Positions 32,872 to 38,200 of a DNA stretch of 64,000 nt are shown in pieces. The first letter of the stretch is position 1. Every line of letters starts with the position of its first letter. A program made the position numbers and the translations under genes. The stretch is from Natrialba magadii ATCC 43099 (lineage in GTDB: Archaea; Halobacteriota; Halobacteria; Halobacteriales; Natrialbaceae), in NCBI RefSeq assembly GCF_000025625.1, contig NC_013922.1:1116001-1180000 (forward strand), read 5' to 3'. The notes under the pieces are model-generated. The model saw nothing but the letters and a program-made list of their open reading frames with translations, was not told where the DNA came from and ran no database searches.

Positions 32872-33831
32872 TTAGAAGCGACGCCGTCCGCCGGGGCCGC
32901 CTGGGCCACCGGGACCGCCTGGGCCACCCGGTCCACCGCCACCGAGTTGGAACTGATTCGCGGTGCGGACGTTCTTCGTTCGTTTAATGTATGCGCCGTA
33001 GGCCAGTCCGATGACGAGGCCGACAAGGTGGGCTGCGTGAGCGATGCCACCGGCACCGCCCGCGCCAGTGCCGATGAGGCCGACGCTGATGAGCGCCGTC
33101 CCCACCGCGAGCATCCAGAGCCGAACGGGGACGATCATGTAGAGGTAGACGGTGAGGTTCGGGTTCAGGATGGTGAGCACGCCCATGATCGCGAGGGCTG
33201 CCCCGCTGGCTCCGAGGACGCCGCCGCCTCCGGGGAGCACCGGCCCCTGGTAGATCTGGATAGCGACCTGACTCAGGCCGGCGATGGCACCGCTGACGAG
33301 GAACAGAATGAGGAAGTTCCGCGACCCGATGTATCGCTCGACGAGCGGACCGAAGAAGAATATCACGATGGCGTTGAACGCGATGTGAACGATGCCGCCG
33401 TGGGCGAAGATCGAGGTCACCCAGGTCCAGACGTACTCCGGGTTCTGCGGGGTCAACACGAACAGCGAGCGCTGGAGACTGGCGGAACCAAACGTGCCGA
33501 CGAGCAACTGCGCGAAGAACGTGATCCCCATGAGCGCGAGAATCGTGTAGGTCATGTTCCCGCGGAAGTACGCGAGCGGTCCGCCGGGGCCAGTGTCGAT
33601 CGGCACTTTGTCGGCGATGCTCGCCGTTTTCGACGTGCTCCCGCTTGCGCTCCCGCTGTTGACACCCTCGTCGAAGCCGCTATCGAAGACACCGCTCGGA
33701 TCGTTCCAGTTTTGCAGTCCGGAACAGTCGTGGTTCTCCGGCAACCGATGGTCGGCACAGTAGGTTCCCCCGCAGTGCCGACAGTTGTACGGCATGCTTT
33801 CGTCCTTCCGACACACGTCGCACTTGGCCAT
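32872..33831 (-). CDS. Rhomboid-family intramembrane serine protease with N-terminal AN1 zinc finger
   Basis: This 319-residue protein joins an AN1-type zinc finger (1-40: CDVC, CRHC, YCADHRLPENHDC) to a six-helix rhomboid domain (about 92-285). Ser209 in GASGA and His268 in AHLVGLVIG form the predicted dyad; HGGIVHIAFN in helix 2 supplies the oxyanion side chains. The protease cleaves membrane segments of other proteins in the cytoplasmic membrane. The C-terminus is a GGPGGPGG repeat. The start is ATG 33829-33831. The zinc finger suggests binding of ubiquitin-like (SAMP) or other protein partners, which is inference. Confidence 0.93.
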   Translation of the reverse strand: MAKCDVCRKDESMPYNCRHCGGTYCADHRLPENHDCSGLQNWNDPSGVFDSGFDEGVNSGSASGSTSKTASIADKVPIDTGPGGPLAYFRGNMTYTILALMGITFFAQLLVGTFGSASLQRSLFVLTPQNPEYVWTWVTSIFAHGGIVHIAFNAIVIFFFGPLVERYIGSRNFLILFLVSGAIAGLSQVAIQIYQGPVLPGGGGVLGASGAALAIMGVLTILNPNLTVYLYMIVPVRLWMLAVGTALISVGLIGTGAGGAGGIAHAAHLVGLVIGLAYGAYIKRTKNVRTANQFQLGGGGPGGPGGPGGPGGPGGRRRF

Positions 33832-34041
33832 TGCCGGGGGGTATGTGCGGCGTCGCTAAGGGGTTTGGGGTTCCGGGGTTTCGACGTTTCGGGATTCCGG
33901 CGCTCCGTTCGTCGACTACATCTCGACCCGCTTCCCACTCCCCGCGGTTACCGGTCCATCCCCGTTACTTTCTATGATATTCTTTCACTCGTGACCTTGC
34001 TCGGATTTATGTCTGTCCGTGTTGACCTCTCTGTCGACTGT

Positions 34042-35262
34042 ATGACCGATATTGGGTCCGAGTCCGCTTCTCCGTCACCAGTTGCGGACGACAACGATGA
34101 CGATGCGAGGGCCGACGACACGGGCGACGACGGAGACGGAGACGGAGATGGAGACGGCGGTTCCAGTACCAACCAAAACGGATCCAGAGACGAGTTTGCG
34201 ACACTCAGCTACGAGTTTCGGCGACACCTGGCGGTCGTCTACGGCAACTCAGAACTTCTCCTCGAGGAAGCCTTCGGCTCACTCACACCAGATCAGCAAG
34301 CGGCACTCGAGGAGATCATCGTGAACACCAGCGAACTGACCGCGCTCACGGCGCACGCGTTCGAGACGAACGATATCGAGGACGCGGTCGACCGCACCGA
34401 TGCTCTCCCGGAGTCGACCGGCACGGACGAGTCGACACTGGCCGACCCCGACGAATTCGACCCGATCGTGCTGGCGTTCCAGAGCGAACCGTTCGCCGAA
34501 CTCGTCGCCGAGCAACTCGAGTTGGCTGGCCACGAGGCGGCGCTGGTCGACGGTATCGACGAGAGCGCTGGTCTGGATACCCCATACCATCTCGTCGTCG
34601 ACTGCGGGTTCCCGACGACGGAGATCGTCGAGCGGCTCGCAGCGCTCGCCCAGCCGACGAACGGACAGCGGTCGATAACGCTCGCGTCGACCGTCGATCC
34701 GGTGGTGGAGATGGAAGAAACAGCGAGAGAGCGTGCAGGAACGAAACCGGGAGCAAGATCAGCTGCAGGCACTGGCGCGACCGTCGGAGTCGCCGGTCCA
34801 CTACTCGGGATCGACGGCATCCTCGACCCGGCAGCGAGTCGCTCGACTGTCGCCGAACTGGTCGCGGACGAGCTGGTACACACGGTTGATACCCCCTCGA
34901 TTTCGACGGTTCATGTCGCCGGCGACGAGACGGAGGCACTCGCATCGTCGCTCGCAGAGCAGTCGTACACTGTCCAGCGCCAGACGACGGCGACGCTTCC
35001 GGAGCTCAACCCCGATGGAGACTCGTGTCTCTTCCTCGGGACGGACGTTTTCGACCGGTGTGACGCGCTCACACTCTCGCGATTCCGTTCGCCGGCCGAC
35101 ACGTCACAGCGTCCGATCCCAATCATCGCAGTTGCCGAAACCCCGTTCGCTGACCGGTCGTGGATACCGACCTGCGGCGCGGACCTCTTCGCACACAAAC
35201 CAGTTACTGCCACAGAGTTCGCGGCCGAACTGCTGTGTTCGCTACCGGATGGTGATGGCTGA
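34042..35262 (+). CDS. HisKA-like/pseudo-receiver scaffold protein without ATPase domain
   Basis: This 406-residue protein begins with an Asp/Gly-rich disordered region (1-48), then a helical hairpin (50-108) resembling a HisKA dimerisation domain: LSYEFRRHLAVVYGNSELL. The phosphoacceptor His of SHELRTPL is Tyr57 here. No HATPase_c follows. Instead two regions (about 125-290 and 295-405) look like degenerate receivers, with LVVDCGFP in the first and FAHKPVTATEF in the second. It probably acts as a scaffold or phosphorelay-independent adaptor. The start is ATG 34042; the open frame upstream overlaps the rhomboid gene antisense. TGATG overlaps the next gene's start. Confidence 0.75.
   Translation: MTDIGSESASPSPVADDNDDDARADDTGDDGDGDGDGDGGSSTNQNGSRDEFATLSYEFRRHLAVVYGNSELLLEEAFGSLTPDQQAALEEIIVNTSELTALTAHAFETNDIEDAVDRTDALPESTGTDESTLADPDEFDPIVLAFQSEPFAELVAEQLELAGHEAALVDGIDESAGLDTPYHLVVDCGFPTTEIVERLAALAQPTNGQRSITLASTVDPVVEMEETARERAGTKPGARSAAGTGATVGVAGPLLGIDGILDPAASRSTVAELVADELVHTVDTPSISTVHVAGDETEALASSLAEQSYTVQRQTTATLPELNPDGDSCLFLGTDVFDRCDALTLSRFRSPADTSQRPIPIIAVAETPFADRSWIPTCGADLFAHKPVTATEFAAELLCSLPDGDG
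34129..34159. repeat. GGAGAC/GGAGAT repeat coding a Gly-Asp linker
   Basis: Five GACGGA-type hexamers code Gly-Asp-Gly-Asp residues in the N-terminal disordered region of the scaffold protein. Confidence 0.75.
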
Positions 35263-35627
35263 TGCAAGTGCTCGTTGCTGAAGACGACGAGCACATCAAC
35301 GAGATGCTTGTCTACCGGCTCGAGACCGCTGGCTACGATGTCATCTCCTTCCAGAACGGAGACGAGTGCTGGGAGTACCTCAAAGATACTGACGAGCCGC
35401 CGGACGCCCTGCTCCTCGACGTGATGATGCCCGGCATGGACGGCTTCGACGTTCTCAGACGGCTCCGTGAGTACGACTTCGACCCGGAACCCGCCGTCAT
35501 CATCGTCTCCGGCCGTGGCCTGGAGCAAGACGTCCTGACCGGCTTCGATCTTGGTGTTGACGACTACGTCACGAAACCGTTCAGCCCCTCCGAAGTGGTT
35601 GCTCGACTCCGGCGGATACTCCAGTAA
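35262..35627 (+). CDS. Stand-alone response regulator receiver domain
   Basis: This 121-residue protein is an intact CheY-like receiver. It has the acid pair Asp8-Asp9 (VAEDDEHINE), the phosphoacceptor Asp in LLLDVMMPGMDG, the Ser of IVSGRG and Lys in VTKPFSPSE. Its start codon overlaps the stop of the scaffold gene by one base, indicating translational coupling. With no output domain it must act through protein contact, most plausibly on the HEAT or glycosyltransferase proteins that follow 17 bases downstream. Confidence 0.93.
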   Translation: MQVLVAEDDEHINEMLVYRLETAGYDVISFQNGDECWEYLKDTDEPPDALLLDVMMPGMDGFDVLRRLREYDFDPEPAVIIVSGRGLEQDVLTGFDLGVDDYVTKPFSPSEVVARLRRILQ

Positions 35628-35644
35628 TACCTCATTCCCACACG

Positions 35645-36721
35645 ATGAACGGACTTCTCTGGACAGTGTTCGTCGTTATCGCCGTGGTAACGGTGTTCGT
35701 CGGATTCCTCACGCTTTCGCTATCGGTCTTTCTGTTCTGGTTCGATGGCAGGCGGACGGCTGCTCGCGCGGAAATCGCACCGGCGATACTGACACGTCTC
35801 GACCAGGACGACCCGGAGTGGGACGGCTGGTACCGAGAACTGTCATTGATCGAGCGCTACGTTGCCCGCCAGGTGGTGGCGAGCTATCTGCGACGCATTC
35901 GTGGCCATGAACGGGCGCAACTCGTTCGATTTGCGGAGGACGTGGGGATCGTCGATCACGCCCGCTCGTTGCTCGGCAATCCGTTGCTGTTCAACCGGCT
36001 GCGCGGACTCGTCTGGCTCACGCTACTCGAGTATCCGGTGTCGATCGAGCGGTTGCGAGCGACGAGTACGTCGCACCCTGAAACCAGAGCTGCGGCGGCG
36101 CGGTTGCTCGCCGTTAGCGACGCACCGGAGGCGAGCCAGAACGGGACGGCGTTGCTCTGCTGGTCGGGTGAGGACCGGCTGTCGACGTTCGGACTGGATA
36201 CCCTCTATCAGCTCAACAACACCGACGCGACGGCGCTGTTGACGCTGACTGCCACGGACGGCGTCTGGTGGGACGAGGGCCTGTTGGTGCAGGCGCTGAC
36301 GACGCTTGGCTACTGCCAGTCGACGCAGGAACTCGCGCAGTTCGAGTGGCTCTTGCCGTTGCTCGAGCACGACTCGCCGCGCGTTCGGTCGGCGACGCTG
36401 ATTGCCCTCGGTCAGCACGGCTGGCGCTGGCGGCTGCGCGACCGTATCGACGTGGAGCGGGCACTCACTGATCCGGAGCCGCAGGTGCGAACGGCGGCGT
36501 ACGACCTGTTCAGTCGTTGGGGCGATTCGGACTCGATCGAGTGGCTGCAGTATGGTGTCGTGTCGGATCCCGACGAGCGTTCGCGGCTGGCCGCCGTGCG
36601 TTTTCTGAATCGTTCCGGGACGTCGCTACCTGAGGCCACCGACGACGCCGTCGTCCGAACGATCGACTGGGTTCGCGCCGAACACGCCACACAGCGGCGG
36701 GTGACGACCGGATGGACGTAG
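35645..36721 (+). CDS. Membrane-anchored HEAT-repeat protein
   Basis: This 358-residue protein has one N-terminal transmembrane helix (about 4-30) and then a series of helical pairs consistent with HEAT repeats. The clearest are LLPLLEHDSPRVRSATLIALGQ and ALTDPEPQVRTAAYDLFSRW and the segment SDPDERSRLAAVRFLNRSG. HEAT solenoids bind other proteins. It overlaps the glycosyltransferase start by 10 bases. Its position between a receiver and a polysaccharide synthase suggests it relays the signal at the membrane, which is inference. The start is ATG 35645. Confidence 0.85.
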   Translation: MNGLLWTVFVVIAVVTVFVGFLTLSLSVFLFWFDGRRTAARAEIAPAILTRLDQDDPEWDGWYRELSLIERYVARQVVASYLRRIRGHERAQLVRFAEDVGIVDHARSLLGNPLLFNRLRGLVWLTLLEYPVSIERLRATSTSHPETRAAAARLLAVSDAPEASQNGTALLCWSGEDRLSTFGLDTLYQLNNTDATALLTLTATDGVWWDEGLLVQALTTLGYCQSTQELAQFEWLLPLLEHDSPRVRSATLIALGQHGWRWRLRDRIDVERALTDPEPQVRTAAYDLFSRWGDSDSIEWLQYGVVSDPDERSRLAAVRFLNRSGTSLPEATDDAVVRTIDWVRAEHATQRRVTTGWT

Positions 36722-38112
36722 CGGTCGAAGCCGTTGTCTGGCTCATCAGCTGGTTCTTCCTCGCGTACTTCGCACTGGTAAACGGCAGCTATCTGTTCGT
36801 CCACCTGGTTTCGATTGTCACCCTCCAGCGTGGGATCCGTGACTGGCTGCTCGACCCCGTCTATCACCCCCATAACTCGCCGTTTCTGCCGGGCATTGCG
36901 GTCATCGTCCCGGCGTACAACGAGGAAGTAACCATCGTGGACACCGTCCAGTCGCTACTCAATCTCGAGTACAGCAACCACGAGATCGTCGTCGTCAACG
37001 ACGGGTCGCGAGACGAGACACTCGAGCAACTCATCTCGACGTTCGAACTCGAGCCGGTCGGCGAGGACGTTCCGTTCGATCTGCCCTGCGAGACGGTTCA
37101 CGAGGTCTACCAGTCCTCGCGGGTCGATCTCGTCGTTATCGACAAGGACAACGGCGGGAAGGCAGACGCGCTCAACGCGGGCGTGTTCTTCACGGACCAG
37201 CCGTTGTTCTGTGCGATCGACGCGGACAGTATTATCGAGCGGAACGCGCTCCTCGAGGTCGTCCAGCCGTTCCTGCGCGATCCCGAGCGAATGATCGCCT
37301 CCGGCGGCGCGGTTCGGGTCGCAAATGGCTGTTCGATTACCCGCGGTGTCATCACCGATATCGGACTCTCGCGAAGCCATCTCGCGAATCTCCAGACCGT
37401 CGAGTACCTTCGTGCGTTTCTCTCCGGTCGGATCGGGTTGAGTGGCCTCGGTAGCTTGCTCATTATCTCCGGCGCGTTCGGCCTGTTCAGGACGAGTACA
37501 GTCCGCGAGGTCGGCGGCTACTCGACGGAGACGATCACCGAGGACATGGAACTGATCGTCAGACTCCAGAAACACGTTTCGGACGAGAAACATCGAATAA
37601 CGTTCGTCCCGTACCCAGTCGTCTGGACGGAGGTGCCCGAGCGGCGGGCTGTCCTCGCCCGCCAGCGTGGTCGCTGGTTCAAAGGCATGCTCGAGACGCT
37701 CTGGGTACACCGGCGGATGATCGGCAATCCGAAGTATGGGATGGTCGGCCTGTTCGCGCTGCCCTTTTTTCTCTTCGTGGAGGCGCTCGGCCCGCTCATC
37801 GAGGGCTTGGGCTATATTATCGTCCCTGCTGCCTTTCTCCTCGGCTACCTGAACGTGCCCTTCTTCGTCGTCTTCCTCGGCGTCGCGGTTGGGGTCGGGA
37901 CGCTGCTCTCGTGGCTCTCCGTGCTCAACGAGGTTGTGAGCTTCCGCCGATACAGGAATCCGAGAGACATCGCACTCTTGCTGCTCTATGGCCTCCTCGA
38001 GCACGTGCCGTTCCGCCAGTGGAAGTCGTTCATCACCTGGGTCGCATTCGTCCAGTATCTCCGTGGCGAGACAAGCTGGGGTGAGATGTCCCGACTCGGT
38101 TTTGACCGCTGA
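36712..38112 (+). CDS. Processive family 2 glycosyltransferase (polysaccharide synthase type)
   Basis: This 466-residue membrane GT2 has an N-terminal helix, a cytosolic GT-A domain (about 60-330) and several C-terminal transmembrane helices. Catalytic marks are IVPAYNEE, VVNDGSRDET, the DxD motif AIDADS, ITEDMEL (acceptor base Asp) and QRGRW, the QxxRW motif of processive enzymes such as cellulose, chitin and hyaluronan synthases and PgaC. The enzyme is predicted to polymerise and export a beta-linked polysaccharide. It is the last gene of the 34042-38112 operon. The product is unknown. Confidence 0.92.
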   Translation: MDVAVEAVVWLISWFFLAYFALVNGSYLFVHLVSIVTLQRGIRDWLLDPVYHPHNSPFLPGIAVIVPAYNEEVTIVDTVQSLLNLEYSNHEIVVVNDGSRDETLEQLISTFELEPVGEDVPFDLPCETVHEVYQSSRVDLVVIDKDNGGKADALNAGVFFTDQPLFCAIDADSIIERNALLEVVQPFLRDPERMIASGGAVRVANGCSITRGVITDIGLSRSHLANLQTVEYLRAFLSGRIGLSGLGSLLIISGAFGLFRTSTVREVGGYSTETITEDMELIVRLQKHVSDEKHRITFVPYPVVWTEVPERRAVLARQRGRWFKGMLETLWVHRRMIGNPKYGMVGLFALPFFLFVEALGPLIEGLGYIIVPAAFLLGYLNVPFFVVFLGVAVGVGTLLSWLSVLNEVVSFRRYRNPRDIALLLLYGLLEHVPFRQWKSFITWVAFVQYLRGETSWGEMSRLGFDR

Positions 38113-38130: not shown

Positions 38131-38200
38131 GACGGAAACGGAAACAGCGACGGAGACGGAAACGGCAACGGCAACGGCAACGGAGACGGCGACCGGGACG
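38131..38200. repeat. GGAAAC/GGCAAC hexanucleotide repeat between GT2 and DUF5788
   Basis: About eleven degenerate ACGGNN hexamers fill most of the gap between the polysaccharide synthase stop and the DUF5788 start. It ends some 38 bases before the next start codon. Confidence 0.85.

Follow-up and report, generated by a model that had tools for sequence, protein, structure and literature searches.

What is known of how exopolysaccharide synthases are controlled post-translationally mainly concerns c-di-GMP, and neither c-di-GMP enzymes nor PilZ receptors were found in the genome of Natrialba magadii, an archaeon whose cells are surrounded by a layer seen by electron microscopy and read as exopolysaccharide (PMC3403918). 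A four-gene operon in this genome, which encodes a receiver, a HEAT-repeat protein and a membrane glycosyltransferase of the GT2 type, raises the question of what could control such a synthase. Our main reading, to which we give a probability of about 0.6, is that the receiver, HEAT protein and GT2 (REC-HEAT-GT2) constitute a conserved, mobile module in which a phospho-receiver would control a processive polysaccharide synthase through the HEAT protein and without c-di-GMP, and that the first gene of the operon is a DivL-like addition. Two-component control of polysaccharide synthesis is a known kind of regulation, of which the REC-HEAT-GT2 arrangement would be a variant. No matching system was described in the open-access literature on HEAT, glycosyltransferase, response regulator or c-di-GMP, a body of work outside which most subscription papers lie. 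The Shewanella mxd cluster was considered as a relative and set aside; its published description lists a c-di-GMP-linked protein, a GT2, an efflux-pump homologue and an unknown, and mentions neither a HEAT protein nor a receiver.

The operon and its conserved products

The window, i.e. the whole 64-kb stretch of DNA that was analysed, sits in the 3.75 Mb chromosome of a haloarchaeal genome of 4.44 Mb, and the closest named relatives are N. chahannaoensis and N. hulunbeirensis. The four plus-strand genes form a tight operon flanked by genes unrelated to it. All four ORFs were confirmed, together with the overlaps and the 17-base spacing that the first-pass annotation had described: genes 1 and 2 overlap by 1 nt (TGATG), a gap of 17 nt separates genes 2 and 3, and genes 3 and 4 overlap by 10 nt. 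The features are:

Rhomboid/AN1 zinc-finger gene: 32872-33831, minus strand; upstream of the operon and divergent
Gene 1: 34042-35262, plus strand; 406 aa, with an in-frame ATG at 34009 as alternative start; degenerate kinase-less HisKA (DHp) and two pseudoreceivers
Gene 2: 35262-35627, plus strand; stand-alone receiver with a complete active site (D8/D9, D53, S83, K105)
Gene 3: 35645-36721, plus strand; N-terminal transmembrane helix, then HEAT solenoid; proposed receiver-synthase adaptor
Gene 4: 36712-38112, plus strand; membrane GT2 with processive-synthase motifs (D97, D170xD172, ED277-278, QxxRW318-322) and without PilZ
DUF5788 gene and PolX-like polymerase gene: downstream of the operon

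Short hexamer tandem repeats (GACGGA / ACGGAA) are present at 34129-34157, within the N-terminus of gene 1, and at 38131-38189, just past the operon.

Gene 2 is an intact receiver, as had been proposed (PF00072, E 4.4e-27), with the acidic pair, the phospho-Asp, the Thr/Ser and the Lys all in place. The description of gene 3 as a membrane-anchored HEAT solenoid was likewise borne out: it matches Pfam HEAT_2 (E 3.6e-15; 56.4 bits vs a cut-off of 27.7), and its AlphaFold model (pLDDT 95.7) consists of a 51-residue N-terminal helix, hydrophobic over residues 1-35, followed by the solenoid.

Gene 4, proposed to be a QxxRW glycosyltransferase, carries D97, D170xD172, E277-D278 and Q318xxR321W322 and has transmembrane segments at its N- and C-terminal ends, which is the complete set of features of a processive GT2 synthase (D, DxD, (T/G)ED, QxxRW and transmembrane segments). 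The D, DxD, ED and QxxRW motifs are invariant in all 101 relatives examined, and the first position of the TED motif is mostly G or T among them. The best curated match is PgaC/IcaA (TIGR03937, NCBIfam; E 2.3e-38), at 132 bits vs an equivalog cut-off of 422, a score that places gene 4 outside the PgaC/IcaA PNAG synthases proper. The PgaC-PgaD synthase is gated by c-di-GMP. In both cases a processive GT2 would work with a neighbouring second membrane protein, PgaD there and possibly the HEAT protein here; however, the position of PgaD is held in the operon by the membrane-anchored HEAT solenoid and the receiver, and GGDEF and PilZ went undetected in the Natrialba genome. The nearest relatives of solved structure (PDB) are hyaluronan and cellulose synthases. 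Gene 4 has the GT2 motifs and the membrane synthase in common with the cellulose synthase BcsA (PDB match, E 3.6e-8) but differs from it in that no PilZ gating domain was found by domain search and no BcsB is encoded in the operon. Lacking PilZ, in a genome where GGDEF and PilZ went undetected, gene 4 does not classify as a c-di-GMP-gated synthase of the BcsA kind.

Distribution and co-inheritance of receiver, HEAT protein and GT2

A receiver, a transmembrane HEAT protein and a GT2 lie adjacent on one strand in the Natrialba operon, and this cassette is present in 22 of the 146 haloarchaeal genomes sampled. Separate searches of all 146 for GT2 and for HEAT gave strong matches in the same 22, always at adjacent positions. 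The only extra GT2 match is a remnant with an internal stop (L053:1501-1977; G005:C15:91629-92105), a probable decayed cassette. Within Natrialba, three of the seven species carry the cassette, and plasmid-borne relatives occur in Halosolutus, Salinirubellus and Haloarcula. Plasmid copies have been independently annotated as response regulator-HEAT-GT2, followed in one case by a GAF sensor kinase and in another, from Halosolutus, by a GlmU-like nucleotidyltransferase and glmS. The cassette is a patchy and probably mobile trait. The Halosolutus neighbourhood hints at a UDP-amino-sugar substrate for the GT2 and suggests that the product is an amino-sugar polymer. On the plasmid of Halosolutus gelatinilyticus the HEAT gene (L158:5351-6442) is annotated in two pieces, perhaps because of a frameshift.

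The first-pass annotation knew of no described archaeal system with this gene set and had called for a search of the gene order across archaea and bacteria. The set is not peculiar to archaea: 68 of the 101 GT2 relatives are bacterial, and the haloarchaeal GT2s form one group. As to the order, the last three genes are conserved, while the four-gene set is not, gene 1 being lineage-limited. The HEAT gene lies directly upstream on the same strand at 95 of the 101 GT2 loci, and the receiver just before it at 80. The remaining six comprise two loci at contig ends, three with a divergent HEAT gene within about 5 kb (L072, L074, L084) and one from Izimaplasma. The bacterial relatives are 37-48% identical and come from Bacillota, Pseudomonadota, Gemmatimonadota, Myxococcota, Nitrospirota, Actinomycetota, Bacteroidota, Rhodothermota and Elusimicrobiota, among others, and the cassette itself is found in at least nine bacterial phyla. 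As archaea and bacteria share the three-gene order, it is not due to chance.

Bacterial versions may carry added Hpt, GGDEF or EAL domains or YaiO barrels. At many proteobacterial loci a YaiO outer-membrane barrel is encoded between receiver and HEAT protein. In Bacillaceae and others the receiver is carried by Hpt/REC/GGDEF proteins, and proteins of the REC-GGDEF-REC or Hpt-REC-GGDEF-REC type are encoded directly upstream at loci of Bacillaceae, Actinomycetota, FCB and Gemmatimonadota; many other bacterial cassettes have a stand-alone receiver only. The cassette receivers retain the phospho-Asp in 75 of 80 cases (exceptions: L068, L103, L105, L120, L155) and the Lys in 78, and no nearby receiver was found in the L104 group of Myxococcota, L153 and L154. 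They cluster apart from other receivers at the same loci, with 11 label changes vs 57.6 after shuffling, and the mislabelling of one cassette receiver (L060) as 'other' weakens this separation instead of inflating it; by this measure of relatedness they fall into a few clusters and are not scattered.

Co-inheritance was also apparent from pairwise distances, with a correlation of r=0.88 between GT2 and HEAT and 0.62 between GT2 and receiver; none of 500 permutations gave values as high, the correlations being uncorrected for the species tree. Within haloarchaea the corresponding values, also uncorrected, were 0.90 vs 0.50. In the GT2 tree, which was used unrooted as outgroup roots gave long branches, all haloarchaeal sequences lie on one side of a branch with an SH-aLRT value of 100. 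This fits a single transfer, whose direction is not fixed by an unrooted tree.

Several loci showed further features. In Candidatus Izimaplasma a single, longer ORF (L129:6543-9392) encodes an N-terminal transmembrane segment, a helical stretch that may be a diverged solenoid, and a GT2; as a HEAT-GT2 fusion it is suggestive only, the Pfam HEAT_2 match (0.0023) being below the cut-off and the hhalign probability 2%. The gene before it encodes an ODP (beta-lactamase fold)-GGDEF-REC protein (L129:4516-6540). A conserved, secreted-looking protein of ~750 aa accompanies many cassettes of haloarchaea and Bacillota (L066:9465-11774, L150:10625-12904, L088:9329-12625, L134:4286-6751; alignment A4); it gave no convincing match in Pfam, NCBIfam or PDB and none in the Natrialba genome; to the eye it resembles a TIM-barrel glycoside hydrolase. 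An unannotated membrane-anchored domain, 'domX' (L068:9379-10482, L104:7959-10466, L088:9329-12625), lies downstream of the GT2 in Bacillaceae, where it is joined to the conserved secreted protein; in Myxococcota it shares the open frame of the GT2. A contig labelled as a Klebsiella pneumoniae MAG (L107) has a cassette of the Myxococcota type and is most likely mislabelled or contaminated.

The first gene and its relatives

Gene 1 had been described as a kinase-less scaffold with Tyr in place of His, no ATPase and two receiver-like regions. These features were all recovered, but the protein is better stated to be a degenerate DHp which, judging from its relatives, goes back to an ancestor that had its His intact and whose gene lay behind that of a real kinase. 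Its HisKA match is weak (Pfam E 7.7e-5, slightly below the gathering score), and a relative in locus L058 reaches 28.6 bits vs a cut-off of 26.9. The H-box His is replaced by Tyr57, with Arg61 at H+4, and no HATPase match was obtained in the domain search; both marks of a histidine kinase, the HisKA His and HATPase_c, are thus missing. The structure model, which is of modest confidence (pLDDT 64.6), comprises a DHp hairpin (46-105) and two receiver-like alpha/beta domains (142-277 and 289-400). Apart from receivers, most of what a Foldseek search with this model matched was without meaning, and the search was used only to back the receiver assignment. Strand 3 of the first pseudoreceiver ends in an Asp (D187) that is invariant in 12 relatives, the acidic pair and Lys being absent; the second has no Asp.

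Tyr or Phe occupies the H-box site in 10 of the 12 aligned family members, and in these ten His-less proteins the +4 residue is Arg (His in one); the +3 Arg (R60) is invariant. The usual phosphatase residue of HisKA kinases is a Thr at +4. Kinase and phosphotransfer capacity appear to have been lost in gene 1, and phosphatase capacity was probably lost as well. The H-intact relatives, in L138 and in the second cassette of Natronococcus amylolyticus (L065), have the H-box ASHELRTPL; they are longer, possess receiver-like domains and, by eye, a GAF-like N-terminal region, and lack HATPase. Both are encoded directly downstream of a PAS/GAF histidine kinase gene, in the order kinase, relay-like protein, receiver, HEAT, GT2. 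The series from H-intact proteins behind a kinase to Tyr/Phe proteins without one would document in nature how a relay protein turned into a pseudokinase.

Gene 1 evolves fast, its products being 64-77% identical in sister species where the GT2s are 96% identical, and its dN/dS of 0.22-0.33 (vs 0.04-0.17 for genes 2-4) indicates purifying selection that is present but loose. Matches were found in 4 of 99 genomes, only one of them, besides the query genome, at an operon locus. At the operon position the gene occurs only in Natrialbaceae and a few others, with frame and position intact in about ten species, and it is missing from the Halovivax and Halorubrum cassettes; gene 1 is a lineage-limited, Natrialbaceae-centred accessory and not part of the cassette core.

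By analogy, the closest precedent is DivL of Caulobacter, in which Tyr replaces His and which senses or binds a phospho-receiver with no kinase or phosphatase activity, the +3 Arg being required for binding of DivK (PMC4211667). Gene 1 resembles it in the Tyr at the HisKA phosphorylation site, the Arg at +3 and the predicted lack of kinase activity, and its profile matches the DivL structure 4q20 among many HisKA structures. DivL, however, retains CA/ATPase and PAS domains, both of which are absent from the gene 1 protein with its two pseudoreceivers. Gene 1 may work like DivL, yet is not a DivL, and its most likely role is that of a DivL-like docking or competitor module.

Source of the signal and rival explanations

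The kinase was expected to be encoded elsewhere, and the domain searches agree: no HATPase match lies within the 64-kb window, and the 21 matches in the rest of the Natrialba genome (about 20 proteins) all lie over 160 kb away from the operon. Eight non-redundant loci of other haloarchaea have a histidine kinase gene on the same strand <200 bp from the cassette, and in two further loci one is immediately upstream of the gene 1 homologue. Searches of the Natrialba genome for GGDEF and PilZ domains, in which positive controls gave matches, detected none, and GGDEF and EAL outputs are reported to be absent from archaeal response regulators (PMC5847659); the receiver itself is therefore most likely the carrier of the signal in Natrialba. 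GGDEF is included in many bacterial versions, in which the real signal may be c-di-GMP.

A dedicated receiver, HEAT and processive GT2 circuit had been proposed at the outset and was supported. In the mechanism that we envisage, a histidine kinase, adjacent in many relatives and unlinked in Natrialba, would phosphorylate the stand-alone receiver, which would then dock on the membrane-anchored HEAT solenoid beside the GT2 and so switch polymer synthesis and export on, or lift a block, without c-di-GMP. In Natrialbaceae, gene 1 would read or buffer the receiver. The constant neighbourhood, co-inheritance and membrane anchoring make HEAT, and through it the GT2, the likely target of the receiver; in this model the HEAT protein would touch receiver and GT2 directly. 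Receiver and GT2 are directly linked in nature, as Methanobacteriaceae possess REC-GT2 fusions (REC-BcsA, MTH_548), in which a receiver is tied to a PF13641 glycosyltransferase; these are archaeal like the cassette but fused, with no HEAT adaptor described, and are reported only in methanogens (PMC5847659). As the last three genes co-occur across haloarchaea and at least nine bacterial phyla, the cassette is probably a widespread switch that turns the making of slime or capsule on and off. A broader claim, which we rate slightly short of even odds, is that of a general, previously unrecognised class of synthases, gated by phospho-receivers via HEAT in place of c-di-GMP in archaea and many bacterial phyla, with a phosphorylation-dead DHp-pseudoreceiver, derived from a working relay protein, as modulator in Natrialbaceae. 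Most stand-alone archaeal receivers have no conserved neighbourhood (PMC5847659); the cassette, if correctly read, would give them a concrete, testable output and explain how haloarchaea could turn on capsule or biofilm polymer as needed.

The HEAT protein could instead serve the synthase constitutively, in its assembly or stability, with a receiver that is merely co-transcribed and signals elsewhere (motility, transcription). HEAT-GT2 does persist where the receiver is not nearby or not intact, and the GT2 shows tighter co-evolution with HEAT than with the receiver, most of all among haloarchaea; nevertheless, this explanation is unlikely, given a receiver in 80 of 101 loci across phyla, with its active site retained and a lineage cluster of its own, and the methanogen fusions. 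That gene 1 is a decaying, functionless sensor-kinase fragment, so that the three-gene module alone matters, would accord with its fast evolution, narrow range and absence from some cassettes; we consider it improbable in view of the dN/dS values, the intact frame and position, and the conservation of the aromatic residue at the His site, Arg60 and Asp187.

An ancestral system under c-di-GMP control, of which the archaeal form would be a stripped, little-regulated remnant, is suggested by the GGDEF proteins directly upstream of HEAT-GT2 in bacteria, but seems very improbable when the haloarchaeal receiver keeps its active site, many bacterial cassettes have a stand-alone receiver only, no PilZ was detected in gene 4, and neither GGDEF nor PilZ in the Natrialba genome. 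It is also quite improbable that the GT2 makes no polymer and transfers sugar to lipid or protein. The diversity of GT2 families, the low PgaC score and the lack of a dedicated exporter beside the Natrialba gene would allow it; the QxxRW and ED motifs, the terminal transmembrane segments and the hyaluronan and cellulose synthases as best solved relatives speak for a polymer synthase, as do the YaiO barrels of proteobacterial loci and the glmS and nucleotidyltransferase genes on one plasmid.
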